From: Phycisphaerales bacterium
GTDB lineage: Bacteria; Planctomycetota; Phycisphaerae; Tepidisphaerales; Tepidisphaeraceae
Assembly (NCBI GenBank): GCA_028291615.1
Contig: JAQGHM010000256.1
Location: 1-64,000, forward strand
Direction: 5' to 3'
Length of the DNA stretch: 64,000 nucleotides
This document shows, piece by piece, positions 3,111 through 53,752 of this stretch. A program made the position numbers and the translations under genes. Under the pieces are notes generated by a model. That model made no database searches. It was not told the origin of the DNA and saw only the letters and a program-made list of their open reading frames with translations. Numbering within the stretch: the first letter of the stretch is position 1; the number at the start of each line of letters is the position of its first letter.

Positions 3111-3451
3111 ACTGGCCGTCGGTATTCTTATGGGAACGATCGCGCGGGCCGCGCGGCGGTCGGAGGAAGAAGAGCCCGGGCTCCGGAGGGCGGAACGAAA
3201 GAGGCGTGGAGGGGGGGGTGCCGGGTGGGAGGCGGGGAGAAACGTTGGGCCTTATGGTGACTTCCCGCTTCCATCCTGCATTTCGAACTCTCGTGTACCG
3301 CGCAGTCTATGGCAGACTTATGCTGATTCGGCGGTACTGAGGTTATCAATATTTGCTTGCCTTTTCGGGCGAGCACCTTATCCTCTGGATCATGCGGGTG
3401 GCGAGTCGCAAGGGTCACTTCGGGGCATTTCGTCATTGGCGAGGGCACATG

Positions 3452-4519
3452 ATGCGCGGGAAGATCTCAGTTGTGATCGTGGGTGTGTTGGCGTGTACCT
3501 CGGCGGCGGCGTCGGCGACGGTGACATTGGATACGGTGACGGTGGGCAATCCCGGTAATGCCAATGACGCCACCGGCTTCGGCTCGGTTGGGTACGCCTA
3601 CCAGATCAACCGATACGAGGTGACCAACAGCCAGTACGCCGAGTTCCTCACCGCCAAGGCGACCAGCGATCCGCTGGGGCTGTACAACACGAACATGTCC
3701 AGCGGCGCCGCGGGTGGGATCACGCGGAGCGGCTCATCGCCCGGCTTCACCTACGCGGTCAAGTCCGGGCGGGGCAATCAGCCGGTCGTTTTCGTCAACG
3801 TGTACGACTCGATCCGCTTCGCCAACTGGATGAACAATGGCCAGGGCGTCGGCGACACGGAGACCGGCGCCTATACGCTGCTGGGCGGCACGCCCACACC
3901 GAGCAACGCCAACAGCATCACGCGCAACAGCGGCGCCAAGGTCGTCCTCCCCAGCAGGGATGAGTGGTACAAGGCAGCCTATCACCAGCCGGCCAGCGCG
4001 GGCGGCGACGGCGACGGCTACTGGCTCTATGCCACGCGTACCAACACTGCGCCGAACAGCGACCAGCCCCCGGGTGACCCGTCCATCCGGAGCAACGTCG
4101 GCAACTTTTACGCGGACGATGGCCTGGCCAACGGCTACAACGATGGCTATGCGGTCACCGGTGCCCCCGAGCCGCTCAGCACCAGCCAGAATTACCTGAC
4201 GGACGTGGGGGCGTACAGCAGCGCTGGCAATTATTACGGCACGTTCGACCAGGGCGGCAACGTCGCGGAGTGGAACGAGCCGTTGCCCGCCGGGGAGCCC
4301 TGGCTCCCGGGCGGTTCGTGGTTCTTCAACTCGACCGCCCTCCAGGCCGGCCAGAGTGAAGTCACCGCTCCGTCCGGCGAGTCCGCTGAGCGCGGTTTTC
4401 GTCTGGCAAGTGTCCCGGAGCCGTCTGGAATCGCACTGATCGTGGTTGGGACGGTTGGCTTGCTGCGTCGAAAACGTCCAACCTATCTCTTCGGAGCTAT
4501 AGCCAAAAACTGTCGATGA
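3452..4519 (+). CDS. Secreted SUMF1/formylglycine-enzyme-like protein with PEP-CTERM anchor
   Basis: Predicted 355 residues. I chose the second of two adjacent ATGs (3452) because GAGGG lies six bases upstream. A signal peptide covers about residues 1-24 (MRGKISVVIVGVLACTSAAA). An FGE/SUMF1-like fold follows: YQINRYEVTNSQYAEFL near residue 50, VVFVNVYDSIRFANWMN, LPSRDEWYKAAY, FDQGGNVAEWNE, PGGSWFFNS and GFRLAS. The end is a PEP-CTERM tripartite signal: VPEPSG, a hydrophobic helix, then RRKR. In catalytic formylglycine-generating enzymes the region before GGSW carries copper-binding cysteines; none is seen here, so this is probably a binding or structural member. Exosortase processing is inferred from the tail. 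Confidence 0.88.
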   Translation: MRGKISVVIVGVLACTSAAASATVTLDTVTVGNPGNANDATGFGSVGYAYQINRYEVTNSQYAEFLTAKATSDPLGLYNTNMSSGAAGGITRSGSSPGFTYAVKSGRGNQPVVFVNVYDSIRFANWMNNGQGVGDTETGAYTLLGGTPTPSNANSITRNSGAKVVLPSRDEWYKAAYHQPASAGGDGDGYWLYATRTNTAPNSDQPPGDPSIRSNVGNFYADDGLANGYNDGYAVTGAPEPLSTSQNYLTDVGAYSSAGNYYGTFDQGGNVAEWNEPLPAGEPWLPGGSWFFNSTALQAGQSEVTAPSGESAERGFRLASVPEPSGIALIVVGTVGLLRRKRPTYLFGAIAKNCR

Positions 4520-4560
4520 CGAGTCGCGGCGCCGTTTGTCGCGCATTTCGTGGCGCAGGA

Positions 4561-18203: not shown

Positions 18204-19565
18204 CGCCCCCATCGCCTGCTGCAGATCTCCGGGCGTCGCGTATTTCCCCGCGGCGATGTCCGTCGCCAGTTTGCGGATGGCCGGCGCTTTCTGATCCCAC
18301 TGCGCCATCGTGCCTGCGTTGAGCGTCCGCAGCACCTCCGATGAGATTCGCCAGTTGTTCCCCACCTGCTCCAGCGGCACGTCGCCGGGGCCCGAGCGCC
18401 CCATGTTCACGATCGCGCGGTTGCCGTTGATCGTCTCGGGGGCGTTCAGCACGTCGGCGGGGTCAACGCCGCCGCCAAGGTCGGCGAACTGTTTTCCGGC
18501 CGCCTCGCCAAACTCGGCGGTCACCGCCTTTTGCAGCGAGTCGACCGCCGACAGGACGTGCACCACTTGCTTCAACGTCGTCTCCTGCTGCGCGGTCAGT
18601 CCGGTAAAGCACTTCAGCATTCCATCTTCGTCGCCCGCCAGGCCGGCCTTGTATGCCGCGACGACCACGCCCTTGGGCGTGAGCGGCGCTGCCGCGGCGG
18701 GATTGGTCGCAGGCGCGGTCGCCGCCGGCGCCGCTGCGGACGGCTTCGCGCCAGCCTTGTCACCCGCGCCGGGTTTACCCGAGCCCGTCACCTGCGCCAC
18801 GCCGATCGAAAGACCGATCGCCGCCAGTACCAGCAGGCCTGCGCCCGCTCCGATTTTCGCATTCGTCCAGGGCATCATGTGCAGTGCTCCGCGTGAAAGT
18901 GAAAGGACCATCGGCGACGCCAAACCTGGCGTTGCCGTAACCGCCGCGACCGACGCCGCCGTCGATGCCGGCGCGGCTTGGCTCGTGTAACTCAACATCC
19001 CCGCCGCCAGCGTGCCCGCCGCAATCGCCATCCCCCTGCCGCTCAGCAGCGTGCGCATGCGATCGATCGCACGGGAGATGCGTTTCCGCGCCGCCGGCTC
19101 GCCGATCGATAGCGCCTCTCCGATCTCGGCAAAACTCTTCCGCTCGTAATACCGCAGCAGGATCGATTGCCGGTCCGCCTTGGGGAGCTTGCCGACCACC
19201 TCATCCAGCACCGGGGCCAGAGTCTCCCACGCCTGTTCATCCATCGTCGATTGTTCTTCCTTGGCCATGACCGCGGCCCGCCTCTCGTGCGTCCTGCGCC
19301 GCCCGGCCGACCGCAGCGCCATCGCCGACGCCCGCCGCGTCACCCGAAACAACCACGCCGACAGCACCACCCCCCCTGCCAGTTTCGGGGCGTGTCGCGA
19401 CAGCGCCAGAAAGACCGCCTGCGTCACGTCGTCCGCCGTGTGCGGGTCGCGCACCTGCCGCAGCGCCGCCGAGTAAACCCAGTCGAGGTGGCGGGCCACC
19501 AACTCGGCAAAGGCGCGCGGGTCGCCGTCGTTCACGTGCCGCCGTAAGATTTCCAGATCGCTCAT
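18192..19565 (-). CDS. ECF-type sigma factor with membrane-anchored C-terminal extension
   Basis: Predicted 457 residues from the ATG at 19565 (GGA six bases upstream); an ATG two codons earlier at 19571 is the alternative. Sigma region 2 is at about residues 10-80 (DPRAFAELVARHLDWVYSAA, DDVTQAVFLALSRHAP) and region 4 at about 120-172 (LPKADRQSILLRYYERKSF, IGEPAARKRISRAIDRM). Typical ECF factors end near residue 190. Here an Ala-rich segment is followed by a transmembrane helix at about 237-258 (GAGAGLLVLAAIGLSIGVA), a Pro/Ala linker and a 150-residue soluble domain. That domain would lie outside the cytoplasm and could sense a signal directly, replacing a separate anti-sigma factor; this is inference. 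The gene is convergent with and overlaps the giant surface protein gene. Confidence 0.88.
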   Translation of the reverse strand: MSDLEILRRHVNDGDPRAFAELVARHLDWVYSAALRQVRDPHTADDVTQAVFLALSRHAPKLAGGVVLSAWLFRVTRRASAMALRSAGRRRTHERRAAVMAKEEQSTMDEQAWETLAPVLDEVVGKLPKADRQSILLRYYERKSFAEIGEALSIGEPAARKRISRAIDRMRTLLSGRGMAIAAGTLAAGMLSYTSQAAPASTAASVAAVTATPGLASPMVLSLSRGALHMMPWTNAKIGAGAGLLVLAAIGLSIGVAQVTGSGKPGAGDKAGAKPSAAAPAATAPATNPAAAAPLTPKGVVVAAYKAGLAGDEDGMLKCFTGLTAQQETTLKQVVHVLSAVDSLQKAVTAEFGEAAGKQFADLGGGVDPADVLNAPETINGNRAIVNMGRSGPGDVPLEQVGNNWRISSEVLRTLNAGTMAQWDQKAPAIRKLATDIAAGKYATPGDLQQAMGALMR

Positions 19566-19741
19566 ACGCATTCCAATCTATCCAGCAGATGCCAACGACC
19601 CGAAATTGTGACGAGCAAAATTGCGATATTAATTCCCGCGCCACAGTGCTGTGATTCAGAAGAAACCTTTGACAGACCCCGCGCCGGGGAGTTAGGGTGT
19701 GCCAACTCTACTCAGGGGCGGCATTCGAACCGAGGGCGATC

Positions 19742-47018: not shown

Positions 47019-48899
47019 TTAGCGGCGACGGCGGCGGCGAAGCAGGGTGGCGGCGGATAGGAGGAGGCCGGCGATGCCGCCGATTGCGGGTTCGGGGACG
47101 GCTTGGAACGCACTGGGGGCGAAATCGGATGGGGCGGTCGGCGCGGCGGCGGGGGGCAGGATGGCGTCGGGGAGTGACGGAGCGCAGAGGCCGTCGGGAT
47201 GATGATGCCATTTCGGAATGTGCGTGGGGAGTTCGCCCGACGCTGCTAACTGCGCGAGATCGGCGGCGTGGGGGCAGGGGCCGGTGAGGGTGTTGGGATC
47301 GTCGCCGGCGACGACGGCATAGGGGCTTAGGCCGTGGTGGTCGGATCGATCGTTCCAGTGGCGGGGTGTCGTGTGATCGCCGTCTTCGATGAACATACGA
47401 CGGATGTGGCCTGGCGGACTTGCTGCGCCGTTGTCGACGATGGCCACTTCGACCGGCTTGCCGTTGGGTGCGCCGGTACCGGTTGATTGTTCATGTCCGC
47501 CGAACCAGGCATCCATCTCGTCGCGGGCGCGCTCGCCGGAATGCGGGAGGAGGGCCAGGCATTGCGCGACGACGCGGTCGGAAGGCGACAGCGACGGCGA
47601 TGCGTCCTGGGGGCGGGCGGCGGGGCGGGCGGGCGGTGTTGCCGATCGTGCGGCGACTGCAACCGGCGCTGCCGTCCCGGAGACGGCGCGGCGGACCTCG
47701 ATGGGCGCGGGGGGCGTTTCGCTGGCGAAGTTACGCGGCACGGGGGCGACGCCGGCGTAGGTGGTGTTGCTGGCTAGCGAGCGCGATGCGCCGGCGGGGG
47801 CGGCGGCGATCGTCGATGTGACGTGACTATTCTTGAGCGTCGTTTCGGCCTGCGGAAGGGGCGACGGCTTGGGTTCGGGATCGTCTGCGCCCGAACGATA
47901 GGGCGGCTCGTTGGAGATGGTGGTGACGAACGGTTTGGCGGGTTGAGGGGCAGGCGATTGAGAACTTGAAACGATGATTGGCGCTTTGGGAGTCGGAACA
48001 ATCACGGCCACTTGTCCTGATGGACTTGCGGCCGGCCGACTGGTTTTGGGCATCGACCAGATGCCCACGACTGTCACGGCGGCCACGAGTTCGGCTGCCA
48101 ACGCGGCGCGGAGCAATCGACCTGAGGCTCCCGCCGCGGCTGTCATGGCCTGGCGCGCCATCCACTGAGCGAGGATCGAGGCTTGGCCGGGCGTGGTTGC
48201 TGCCGTGACGACCGAACTGTTGAATCCCATCGGCAGGGCCGACGCGGCGCGGCTGCGCAACAGCACGACCAGGGCGAGCAGCGTGGCTACCGGGGCGCGC
48301 TTGCTTCCGAGGCGTTTACGAAGGCGGCCCAAGGCGCGACCTACGCGCTTTTTGACGCCTTCTTTTCCGATTTCGAGCACGTCGGACATCTCGTTCAGGG
48401 AGAGGCCTTCGTAAAAGTGCATCAGAAGCGCCTGGCGATCGCGCTCGGTGAGGGTGGCCAAGGCGTCGTCGAGGGCGGCCTGGGTGTCGGGGGAGACTGC
48501 GGCGCGGCGGGGGGCCATGCGCTCGATGGCCAACTCGCGGGCGACGTCCTCGCGGCGGCGATATCTTGCCTGCTGCTTGCGGGCGTCTTTAACCACGAAG
48601 CGGGCGGTGTTGAACAGCCAGCCGCTCAGGCGGGTTTGCTCGGTGATCGTTTCCGCGCGGCGGGCCAGGATGATGAAGACCGCCTGGGCGGCGTCTTCGG
48701 CCATCTGCTGATCGCGCAAGGCTTTACGGCAGGTCGCGTGGACCCAGGAGAGGTGCCGGCCGACCAGTTCTGAAAACGCTTCCTGCGAGCCGAAGTCGAC
48801 GTAGCGGCGCAGCAGGGCCCAATCGTCGGCGGTTTGACCCGCGATCGAAGCCCGGTCGGCATGAGTGGTCGTACTGTTCATCGCGACGGACGTACGCAT
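47019..48899 (-). CDS. ECF-type sigma factor with transmembrane linker and C-terminal PEP-CTERM signal
   Basis: Predicted 626 residues from ATG 48899; ATG 48881 is an alternative without a Shine-Dalgarno. Sigma region 2 at about 37-105 (FSELVGRHLSWVHATCRKAL, DAAQAVFIILARRAETI) and region 4 at about 143-197 (LTERDRQALLMHFYEGLSL, GVKKRVGRALGRLRKRL). Hydrophobic segment 203-215, then TPGQAS and a transmembrane helix at about 262-283 (LLRAALAAELVAAVTVVGIW). A 310-residue Pro/Ala/Ser linker follows, holding GPCPHAADLAQLAASGELPT and PKWHHHPDG. The end is AVPEPAIGGIAGLLLSAATL followed by RRRRRR, a PEP-CTERM exosortase signal. Such a sorting tail on a sigma factor is not usual. The ORF is continuous, with no sign of two fused genes. 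Its layout parallels the sigma factor at 18192-19565. Confidence 0.85.
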   Translation of the reverse strand: MRTSVAMNSTTTHADRASIAGQTADDWALLRRYVDFGSQEAFSELVGRHLSWVHATCRKALRDQQMAEDAAQAVFIILARRAETITEQTRLSGWLFNTARFVVKDARKQQARYRRREDVARELAIERMAPRRAAVSPDTQAALDDALATLTERDRQALLMHFYEGLSLNEMSDVLEIGKEGVKKRVGRALGRLRKRLGSKRAPVATLLALVVLLRSRAASALPMGFNSSVVTAATTPGQASILAQWMARQAMTAAAGASGRLLRAALAAELVAAVTVVGIWSMPKTSRPAASPSGQVAVIVPTPKAPIIVSSSQSPAPQPAKPFVTTISNEPPYRSGADDPEPKPSPLPQAETTLKNSHVTSTIAAAPAGASRSLASNTTYAGVAPVPRNFASETPPAPIEVRRAVSGTAAPVAVAARSATPPARPAARPQDASPSLSPSDRVVAQCLALLPHSGERARDEMDAWFGGHEQSTGTGAPNGKPVEVAIVDNGAASPPGHIRRMFIEDGDHTTPRHWNDRSDHHGLSPYAVVAGDDPNTLTGPCPHAADLAQLAASGELPTHIPKWHHHPDGLCAPSLPDAILPPAAAPTAPSDFAPSAFQAVPEPAIGGIAGLLLSAATLLRRRRRR

Positions 48900-48952: not shown

Positions 48953-50221
48953 TCAGGCGTCGCAAAGAACGTCGATGCAGAGGACGTAAAGCTTGCTGTT
49001 GCCGACGTCGCGGAAACCGGTGGAAAGCGTGCGGCAAACGTTGCCCGAAGCGAGGGATACGTAGGGATCGGTGGTGTACTTGTGCAATTCTACGTCGAGC
49101 AGGATGTAGTAATACTCCTTGAGGGAGTGATCAGCGCCGCGCAGGGCGGGGCGGAACATGACGCCGTTGGGGCGGCGGGGGACGTCGGGGTTGCAGACGG
49201 TGTCGGTTACCTGCAGGCCGGCTTCGTCCAAAACGTAGATGCACTCGACGCGCGGGAACTTACTGATTAAGCCGGCGAGGACGACGTCGAACTGTTCGAC
49301 GTGGCATTGCGAGAGCTCGCAGAGGATCTCGTTCAGGACGATGGTGAAGCGGCGGTGCTCGAGCTTGCGCTGGTTGATCTTGCCGACCATGTAGCTTTTG
49401 AAATCGCGCGCGAGCTGCGCGACGCGGCCGCCGGCGGCTTCGACGTGCGCGATGCCGGGGCGTTCGGGGCGGCCTAAGAAGAATCCCTGGAGGAGGTCTG
49501 CGCCCAGTTCCAGGGAGACCAGGGCTTCGGCGCGGGTTTCGATTCCCTCGGCCACGACCAGCGCGCCGATCTTTCGGGCGAGGTGGACCAGCGATTTGAG
49601 GGTTTCCTGCTTGTGGTAGTCCTGGTCGAGGTCGCGGATGAGGCTTCGGTCGACCTTGAGGATGTCGGGCTTGATCAGCGGGATGCGGTCGAGGTTGGAG
49701 TGGCCGGTGCCGACGTCGTCGAGGACGAGGAGGAAGCCGCAGTCGCGGAAGCGTTTGAGGAGGTCGCCGAGGCGCTGCGTATCGGCGAACTTGCTCTCGA
49801 GGATCTCGACGGCGACGCGGTTGGGCGGCAGGCCCCATCGGCGGCAGGCCTCGAGGAGGCTGCCCGCGCCGGGGCGCTGGTCATCCGCCGAGCCGTCGAA
49901 ATTGAGGAAGAGAATCAGGTCTTCGTTGCGGTTTTCGAGGCGGGCGAAGGTGCGGATGGCGGTTTCGCGGCAGAGGCGTTCGAGCTCGTCGCCGATGCCT
50001 TCTTCGTTGGCCATGCCGAAGAGTTGGTCGGGCGGGATGAGTTGATCGGATTGCGGGATCGCGCCGCGGCTGAGCGCTTCGACGCCGATGATGCCGCGCG
50101 AGAGGGCTTCGAGGCCGGTGACGGCTTTCTGGCGTGCGGAGAGGATGGGCTGAAAGTAGGTGACGACCCCGCGACGGGCGATGATCTCGCGAGCCGAGAG
50201 GGCGCAGGTGGTGGCCGCCAT
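48953..50221 (-). CDS. EAL-domain cyclic-di-GMP phosphodiesterase with C-terminal sensor-like domain
   Basis: Hydrolyses c-di-GMP to pGpG, lowering the signal that favours biofilm. Predicted 422 residues from ATG 50221. EAL domain about 20-270. The signature is present twice in tandem (GLEALSRGIIGVEALSRGAI, about residues 36-55). The other catalytic residues are intact: LILFLNFDG (Asn), VAVEILESK (Glu), LVLDDVGTGHSNL (Asp-Asp), ILKVDRSLI (Lys), VVAEGIET (Glu) and LLQGFFLGRPE (Gln). The C-terminal 150 residues resemble a PDC/dCache-like domain (FPRVECIYVLDEAGLQVTD, LKEYYYILLDVELHK). No GGDEF domain. No membrane helix, so it is probably cytoplasmic. It lies between the sigma/PEP-CTERM gene and a LEPR-XLL gene on the opposite strand. 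Confidence 0.9.
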   Translation of the reverse strand: MAATTCALSAREIIARRGVVTYFQPILSARQKAVTGLEALSRGIIGVEALSRGAIPQSDQLIPPDQLFGMANEEGIGDELERLCRETAIRTFARLENRNEDLILFLNFDGSADDQRPGAGSLLEACRRWGLPPNRVAVEILESKFADTQRLGDLLKRFRDCGFLLVLDDVGTGHSNLDRIPLIKPDILKVDRSLIRDLDQDYHKQETLKSLVHLARKIGALVVAEGIETRAEALVSLELGADLLQGFFLGRPERPGIAHVEAAGGRVAQLARDFKSYMVGKINQRKLEHRRFTIVLNEILCELSQCHVEQFDVVLAGLISKFPRVECIYVLDEAGLQVTDTVCNPDVPRRPNGVMFRPALRGADHSLKEYYYILLDVELHKYTTDPYVSLASGNVCRTLSTGFRDVGNSKLYVLCIDVLCDA

Positions 50222-50514
50222 GAACGCACGAATCCTTAGCCGCAGAAGTTCCCGCCGCCCCCGGGTTTGGGGCGTTCGCCGGGCGGCAATCCCGGTCAAA
50301 AGTAAGTTGCGGGGACGTTACATCAGTTCCTCGACATTCGTGCGCATGGTTCCTGATCGAGTATCGACGGACGCGGGGGGCGGGTTTACCTCATCGCTGG
50401 TATAGACTTACAGTGACGTTGGTAAATGCATGGGGCACGCCGGAATTCCCCTTCCACGAGCTCAGCCGCAGGCATTAGAGTGTTCACGGGTGAGAGGATC
50501 AGGAGCGTCCGAGA

Positions 50515-52175: not shown

Positions 52176-53696
52176 CTAGAAATCCTTCCGCTGCCGGGCT
52201 GTGGCGATGTTGAGGATCTTGCGGTATTTCGCGACCGTGCGCCTGGCGAGGTCGATCCCCTGTTCCTTTAGCTTGTCCACGATCTCGTCGTCATTCAGCG
52301 GGTTCTTTTTATCTTCCTCGTCGATGATGATCTTGAGCTTTTCCTTGACGGCGTCCCAGCTCATGTCTTCGCCTTCGGCGCTGGTGGTGCCGCCGGAGAA
52401 GAAGCGGCGTAGCGGGAAGACGCCGCGGGGGGTTTGGATCCACTTTTCGCTGACGGCGCGGGAGCCGGTGGCGACGTGGATGCCGAGCTGGTCGGCGACG
52501 AGGATCATCGGTAGCGGCTTGAGAAATTCGGGGCCCTTTTCGAAAAAGTCACGCTGGGCATCGACGACCACGCGGATCACCCGGGCGATCGTGCTCTTGC
52601 GCTGCTCGATGCTTTCCAACAACCACCGCGCGTTACGGACGTTGTTGGTCAGGAACTCCTTGGTCTTCTTGTCGAGGTTCTTTTCCTTGAGCATCTTCCG
52701 CCAGCGGCCGCCGATGTAGAGGTTTTCGGCGGGATCGTTGGACATCTTGATTTCCAGGCGGCCGGTCTCCTCGTCGAGGTAGATGAAGGCGTCGGGTGTG
52801 ATCGGGGGGGCGTCGTCGTGGCCGATCTGCTTGCCCGGGTGCGGGTGCAGGCGGGAGAGGCGGCGGACGGCTTCCTTCAGGTCTTCGATCGGGCGGCCGA
52901 GCTTTTTGCTGATCTGCGGGTAGCGGTTCATCTCCAGGTCTTTGAGATGATCGGTGACCAGCTTGCGCTCAAGCTCGAAATCGTGGTCTTCGTTGTCGGG
53001 GTCTTCTTCCAGGGCGTTGATCTGGAGGAGCAGGCATTCGCCGATGTCGCGGGCGCCGACGCCGGGGGGTTCGAGGGTTTGAACCATCTTGAGCGCCGCC
53101 TGCAGGTCTTCGATCGCCAGCGGCTTTTTGGATTCGCTGCGGATCGTCTCCAGGTCGATGCGGAGATAGCCCTGTTCATCGATGTAACCGATGATCGCGC
53201 GACCGGCTTGGCTAATTGCAGGCGAGCACTCGACGAACGTCCACTGGTCGAGCAGGTGGTCGGTGAGGTTGCCGGTGCGGTCGGGGGAATTGTTGAGGGC
53301 GTCGAGCTTTTTATCACGTTCGCCTTCGCCGCCTGAGACGCGGTGGTTGAAGGAGGAATTGGTGGCGAATTCCTCGTTTTCGAGGTATTCGCTGATGCGT
53401 TCCAAGCGGTCGAAATCGTCCTGGCTGTCGTTCCCCTGCTCCTGAACGACCAAGGACTGTTCGCCCTCTTCGCGCGGCTCGCGGATTTCGGGGCCCTCGG
53501 TGGGGGTTTCGGTGACGGCGTTGACATCGGTTTCGCCATCCCGCATCTCGAGGACGGGGTTGGACTCATATTCCTGCTCGATGCGCTCTTCCAGGGCCAT
53601 CAGGGGCAACTGGAGGATCTCCATCGACTGGATCATGCGCGGCGTGAGAAGCTGGCGCATCTCCTGCCGCATGGACGTAGACTGGGATAACTGCAT
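52176..53696 (-). CDS. rpoN: RNA polymerase sigma-54 factor
   Basis: Sigma-54 directs RNA polymerase to -24/-12 promoters that need enhancer-binding activators. Predicted 506 residues from ATG 53696 (the upstream start lacks a ribosome site). Region I: QLSQSTSMRQEMRQLLTPRM, then ILQLPLMALEERIEQEYESN. An acidic region II (EIREPREEGEQSL) follows. The core-binding domain shows RAIIGYIDEQGYLRIDLETI. The DNA-binding C-terminus ends with the RpoN box ARRTVAKYRKILNI near residue 490. Length is normal. A promoter candidate lies at 53753-53782. No activator gene is seen next to it. Confidence 0.96.
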   Translation of the reverse strand: MQLSQSTSMRQEMRQLLTPRMIQSMEILQLPLMALEERIEQEYESNPVLEMRDGETDVNAVTETPTEGPEIREPREEGEQSLVVQEQGNDSQDDFDRLERISEYLENEEFATNSSFNHRVSGGEGERDKKLDALNNSPDRTGNLTDHLLDQWTFVECSPAISQAGRAIIGYIDEQGYLRIDLETIRSESKKPLAIEDLQAALKMVQTLEPPGVGARDIGECLLLQINALEEDPDNEDHDFELERKLVTDHLKDLEMNRYPQISKKLGRPIEDLKEAVRRLSRLHPHPGKQIGHDDAPPITPDAFIYLDEETGRLEIKMSNDPAENLYIGGRWRKMLKEKNLDKKTKEFLTNNVRNARWLLESIEQRKSTIARVIRVVVDAQRDFFEKGPEFLKPLPMILVADQLGIHVATGSRAVSEKWIQTPRGVFPLRRFFSGGTTSAEGEDMSWDAVKEKLKIIIDEEDKKNPLNDDEIVDKLKEQGIDLARRTVAKYRKILNIATARQRKDF

Positions 53697-53752
53697 AATT
53701 AACAACCACTTAACCCGCATACCGGCGAGGGCATGCCATTTGCTTACACTGA

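Follow-up and report, generated by a model that had tools for sequence, protein, structure and literature searches.

The window analyzed here, a stretch of 64,000 nucleotides from a Phycisphaerales bacterium of the family Tepidisphaeraceae, encodes an ECF sigma factor that is predicted to span the membrane and ends in a PEP-CTERM signal. The anatomy of such sigma::PEP-CTERM proteins and their conserved exosortase signal are supported by sequence and evolution. We propose, with a probability of roughly 0.6, that the protein is a one-protein envelope sensor, namely a membrane-held ECF of which the exported end is a substrate of exosortase, coupling the state of the envelope to transcription.

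The gene is a single unbroken frame of 626 codons, in which sigma-70 regions 2 and 4 are followed by a transmembrane (TM) helix termed TM2, a Pro-rich linker, and a VPEP-helix-RRRRRR end (Table 1). GC at codon position 3 is the highest or near-highest through to the 3' end of the gene, and thus the PEP-CTERM tail lies in the coding frame. The open reading frame, the Pfam matches, and the codon-position-3 GC agree with the first-pass annotation, which had described one continuous frame joining the two sigma regions; the TM helix it had placed near residues 262-283 was recovered by hydropathy at about 262-280. The protein scored 85.2 bits against TIGR02937 (cut-off 42.9) and, possessing regions 2 and 4 without regions 1.1 and 3, is an ECF (group 4) sigma factor by domain content. 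No anti-sigma domain was found after region 4 among the Pfam and NCBIfam matches listed for the protein. When residues 1-320 were modelled with AlphaFold (mean pLDDT 79, pTM 0.44), the sigma helices were well predicted, and the model resembled the solved ECF sigma factors SigW, AlgU, and SigK; it also has a pair of short helices separating region 4 from TM2 and one long continuous helix at 242-281. The protein begins with the sigma domain and bears no N-terminal signal peptide; its internal TM helix could serve as a signal anchor.

Table 1. Positions in the window of the sigma factor gene, its parts, and the gene upstream of it.
Feature	Position	Strand	Basis or remark
Whole gene, 626 aa	47019..48899	-	ATG 48899 to TAA 47021-47019
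Sigma-70 region 2, aa 45-112	48564..48767	-	Pfam PF04542 Sigma70_r2, 41.1 bits, above gathering
Sigma-70 region 4, aa 146-195	48315..48464	-	Pfam PF04545 Sigma70_r4, 41.9 bits, above gathering
Weak hydrophobic helix, aa ~204-222, probably non-spanning	48234..48290	-	Hydropathy 1.74; model helix 207-220
TM2 transmembrane helix, aa ~262-280	48060..48116	-	Hydropathy 2.01; model helix 242-281; charge bias N-in
Pro-rich linker, aa 284-600, inferred extracytoplasmic, unconserved among homologues	47100..48050	-	Alignment A1
PEP-CTERM tail, VPEP-helix-R6, aa 601-626	47022..47099	-	HMM scores, shuffles, alignment A1
EAL-domain gene (c-di-GMP phosphodiesterase-type), upstream of the sigma gene	48953..50299	-	53 bp gap

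The tail of the window protein, AVPEPAIGGIAGLLLSAATLLRRRRRR, has the form that defines PEP-CTERM, with a PEP motif, a TM helix, and a basic cluster at the extreme C-terminus. A VPEP-like end arising by chance, or an assembly or cloning join, would fit the scores of this tail against the curated models, which stayed below the cut-offs (12.8 vs. 20.7 bits for Pfam PF07589 and 14.3 vs. 16 bits for NCBIfam TIGR02595). However, a tail HMM built from 22 PEP-CTERM tails that the own genome encodes in frames other than sigma factors gave 27.0 bits for the window tail, a score that 20,000 shuffled versions of its 40 residues never reached (best, 15.3 bits). All six of the sigma tails tested, four from the own genome and two from G003, outscored all of their own shuffles, and the cut-off of TIGR02595 was reached by relatives (L035, 23.1; L052, 19.2; L027, 24.6; L274, 25.2; L283, 19.9). 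VPEP and the basic end were kept in all of the nearest homologues, and the same architecture was found in the independently assembled genomes JANYKD and DBZL as well as in 14 members of the C143 clade described below. We therefore reject an origin of the tail by chance or by a join, to which we assign practically no probability; both had been left open by the first-pass annotation, and its identification of the tail as PEP-CTERM stands. From its sequence, the window tail is a genuine, conserved PEP-CTERM signal.

Four sigma::PEP-CTERM genes were found in the own genome: the window gene and one each on contigs C241 (DVPEPSAVLIALGAFAFATLRHRPRR...), C152 (AVPEPGGIGVALITVAMGLMGRRRRR), and C143 (SAPEPGTLSLLTGGLCLLALKRRRRR...), all with the same order of parts as the window protein. 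The closest relatives elsewhere, encoded on C365 and C28 of G003 (Phycisphaerales MAG JANYKD), end in VPEP-helix-Arg, and a further one in G013 (DBZL01, UBA1161) is interrupted by a gap in the assembly, beyond which the frame ends in SVPEPTGPILLMTAAALLLLRRVPRRRP. These closest relatives, from two more genera, thus retain the VPEP tail, albeit with linkers that cannot be aligned, and the tail is conserved across further genera as the earlier reading required. In the alignment of five window-type proteins (A1), the linker was essentially unalignable, and VPEP and the two C-terminal Arg residues were invariant. The sigma domains of these relatives are at most 49% identical to that of the window protein. 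A scan of genome contigs with two short peptide patterns matched one sigma::PEP-CTERM genome only, and an absence in that scan is weak evidence.

The EAL-domain gene lies immediately upstream of the sigma gene, and co-transcription of the two and a link to c-di-GMP are possible. No EAL gene was found beside the relatives of the window gene, and this adjacency is thus not conserved. A sigma-54 (rpoN) gene is also present in the window (52176-53720). In Proteobacteria, sigma-54-type sites are found upstream of many PEP-CTERM genes.

The C143 protein belongs to a second, distant sigma clade (clade I, hereafter the C143 clade). Besides the own genome, 16 genomes of the family encode an orthologue, which brings the total to 17 among the 26 searched; the gene starts were uncertain in several orthologues. 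All 14 orthologues with a readable C-terminus, from 13 genera, end in PEP-CTERM (the other three, truncated at a contig end or by an N run, were excluded from this count). In the alignment of nine C143-clade proteins (A2), PEP and the two C-terminal Arg residues were invariant, and the middle parts differed or were missing. Residues 597-944 of the C143 protein aligned at 36% identity (E 1.4e-44) with L288, a sigma-free protein of ~400 aa from another family that has a signal-peptide-like start and a PEP-CTERM end. Similar sigma-free passengers were found in several other families. Among 298 genomes drawn from the class Phycisphaerae, which this distribution covers, full sigma-passenger-PEP proteins were seen in this family only, the passenger elsewhere being free of sigma. 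By this homology, the C143 protein looks like a secreted PEP-CTERM protein with the signal peptide swapped for a sigma factor and a TM helix. No conserved neighbour, anti-sigma factor or exosortase, was found around the C143-clade orthologues, and thus control is probably built into the protein itself. In a promoter scan upstream of C143-clade genes, neither ECF-like nor sigma-54-like sites were clearly above shuffles.

The passenger of the C143 protein (L027, G000:C143:1-6500, 3437-4525) is predicted to adopt an all-beta fold (pLDDT 83, pTM 0.84), with the last strand (YFAVS) directly N-terminal to the PEP motif. The model resembles ZU5 domains (3f59, E 9e-4, target TM 0.58) and, weakly, the GAIN domain. 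Self-cleaving domains of the ZU5/GAIN type use His and Ser/Thr. These residues do not appear conserved in the C143-clade passengers, and we do not claim autoproteolysis.

In the phylogeny of 166 sigma domains, the PEP label appeared in three places, namely the C143 clade, the window clade (95% SH-aLRT), and C152 alone, and it changed at least three times on the tree. About 100 sister membrane-type ECFs from the same genomes and Verrucomicrobiota lack the PEP-CTERM tag and bear other C-terminal modules instead, ankyrin repeats among them. In the own genome, a paralogous ECF with C-terminal ankyrin repeats was found at 1351-3726 of L015, and other ECF paralogues carry further, mostly unidentified C-terminal domains, which suggests that sensor modules were swapped behind a common sigma-TM platform. 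The window also encodes, at 18540-19586, a further protein of this membrane-ECF family, in a 461-aa frame with no PEP-CTERM and with one stop inside the matched stretch.

The charge flanking TM2, summed over 16 proteins, is +30 before and +5 after the helix, which argues for a cytoplasmic sigma part and an external linker. Homology provides the strongest evidence on topology: the passenger of the C143 type is related to secreted PEP-CTERM proteins of the ordinary kind, and the C-terminal part of the C143 protein therefore very likely resides outside the cytoplasm. For the window protein, the charge bias and the analogy with the C143 clade place the linker very probably outside the cytoplasm, in agreement with what had been proposed for it.

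PEP-CTERM/exosortase substrates are known as exported surface or matrix proteins. The own genome (87% complete, 5% contamination) encodes three EpsH-family exosortases, which match PF09721 at 144-149 bits; the earlier reading had proposed to look for such genes. PEP-CTERM reading frames number at least 25 in this genome, and a sigma factor is among them. Exosortase was found in 59 of the 61 genomes searched, nearly all of those compared being metagenome assemblies, and is nearly universal in the class; its co-occurrence with sigma::PEP-CTERM therefore has no discriminating power.

In the sensor that we propose, the N-terminal ECF sigma part would be cytoplasmic and anchored to the inner membrane through TM2, and the C-terminal half would be exported, with its PEP-CTERM end recognized and processed by exosortases. 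Processing after PEP, which we infer from the signal and the exosortases of the host, would fix the outer end to the surface or set it free there. Whether the exported half has been sorted, and whether it is tethered to the matrix, would then decide if TM2 is cut, and intramembrane proteolysis at TM2 would free sigma, as we infer from the precedents of the IutY and ECF52 (SCO4117) types; the target genes of the window sigma factor are conjectural. The earlier proposal that cleavage of the tail could free the sigma part is mechanistically doubtful: TM2 still anchors the protein, so that tail cleavage alone cannot release sigma without a second cut at TM2. We put forward only tentatively that exosortase covalently joins the outer end of the membrane-held sigma factor to the surface or matrix, such that the cell directly reads sorting or attachment.

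The PEP-CTERM end might instead be a second membrane anchor only, or never be processed, in which case the protein would be a membrane-anchored ECF of the ordinary type, with a loop in the periplasm. The hydrophobic helix with its strongly basic end would suit such an anchor, and the ~100 related ECFs of Planctomycetota and Verrucomicrobiota have C-terminal extensions without a sorting signal. However, a plain anchor needs no PEP motif, yet the motif is invariant in A1 and A2 where the linkers are not, and the window tail fits the exosortase-substrate model of its host; we thus consider this reading unlikely. Similarly, the tail could have been carried along without regulatory meaning when sigma was joined to surface-protein genes, given that the C143-clade passengers derive from ordinary PEP-CTERM surface proteins and that the repeated change of the PEP label on the sigma tree implies recurrent fusions (or losses). 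Such a residue of gene fusion is quite improbable, since the tail has been retained across the 13 C143-clade genera and in deeply diverged window-type proteins despite their unalignable linkers, which points to selection on the tail.

The topology itself would differ if two membrane helices formed a hairpin that left the linker cytoplasmic, and if the tail were a tail-anchor-like end. The hydropathy of segment 204-222 in the window protein (1.74) is in line with such a hairpin, but this segment contains Arg residues, its model helix is short (207-220), and its counterpart falls below the hydropathy cut-off in many relatives. Together with the charge bias, which places the C-terminal side of TM2 outside, these observations render a cytoplasmic linker very improbable.

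Membrane-anchored ECFs with C-terminal extensions that are activated by proteolysis have been described, namely IutY (ECF243) and SCO4117 (ECF52) (PMC8999054). The window protein would share with them the union of sigma and a membrane-bound extracytoplasmic sensor in one polypeptide, and its Pro-rich linker has a parallel in the Pro-rich periplasmic region of SCO4117; on the other hand, IutY and SCO4117 have anti-sigma-like segments and no exosortase signal (PMC8999054), whereas the window protein ends in PEP-CTERM. In its C-terminal PEP motif, TM helix, and basic cluster, and in its exosortase-bearing host, the protein matches the substrates of the PEP-CTERM/exosortase (EpsH) system (Haft 2006, PMC1569441), but these generally begin with a signal peptide (PMC1569441), which the sigma factor together with the internal TM helix replaces here. 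Large C-terminal domains also occur in planctomycete ECFs (ECF57, WD40, and others), which come from the same phylum and likewise consist of sigma and a long extension, but no sorting signal has been described for them and they are proposed to act through protein interaction (PMC8999054, PMC8567305). Transcription is also linked with the PEP-CTERM system by PrsK/PrsR-sigma-54 of Proteobacteria; there, a kinase and a regulator that are separate proteins act on the genes of the sorting system (PMC1569441), whereas here the sigma factor bears the tag. We found no description of an ECF sigma factor together with PEP-CTERM in the full-text literature, a corpus to which most subscription journals do not belong, and the three papers co-mentioning PEP-CTERM and sigma-70 contain a single PEP-CTERM mention each, under titles on other subjects. 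Altogether, membrane-anchored ECFs with extracytoplasmic extensions are already known, and one ending in a sorting signal appears to be new.

The retention of sigma and PEP-CTERM in one protein in many genera of the family suggests a hitherto undescribed link from surface-protein sorting to gene control, and conservation over at least 13 genera makes the combination more than a curiosity. To our knowledge, few if any examples of a sorting machinery feeding back on transcription have been described. If our reading is correct, a conserved sigma factor predicted to be a substrate of exosortase would represent a testable sensing mode, extend the ways in which ECF sigma factors are controlled, and make it possible to follow what becomes of exosortase products, about which little is known. 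Were the outer end linked to the surface, a single polypeptide would form a line from the matrix to the promoter.
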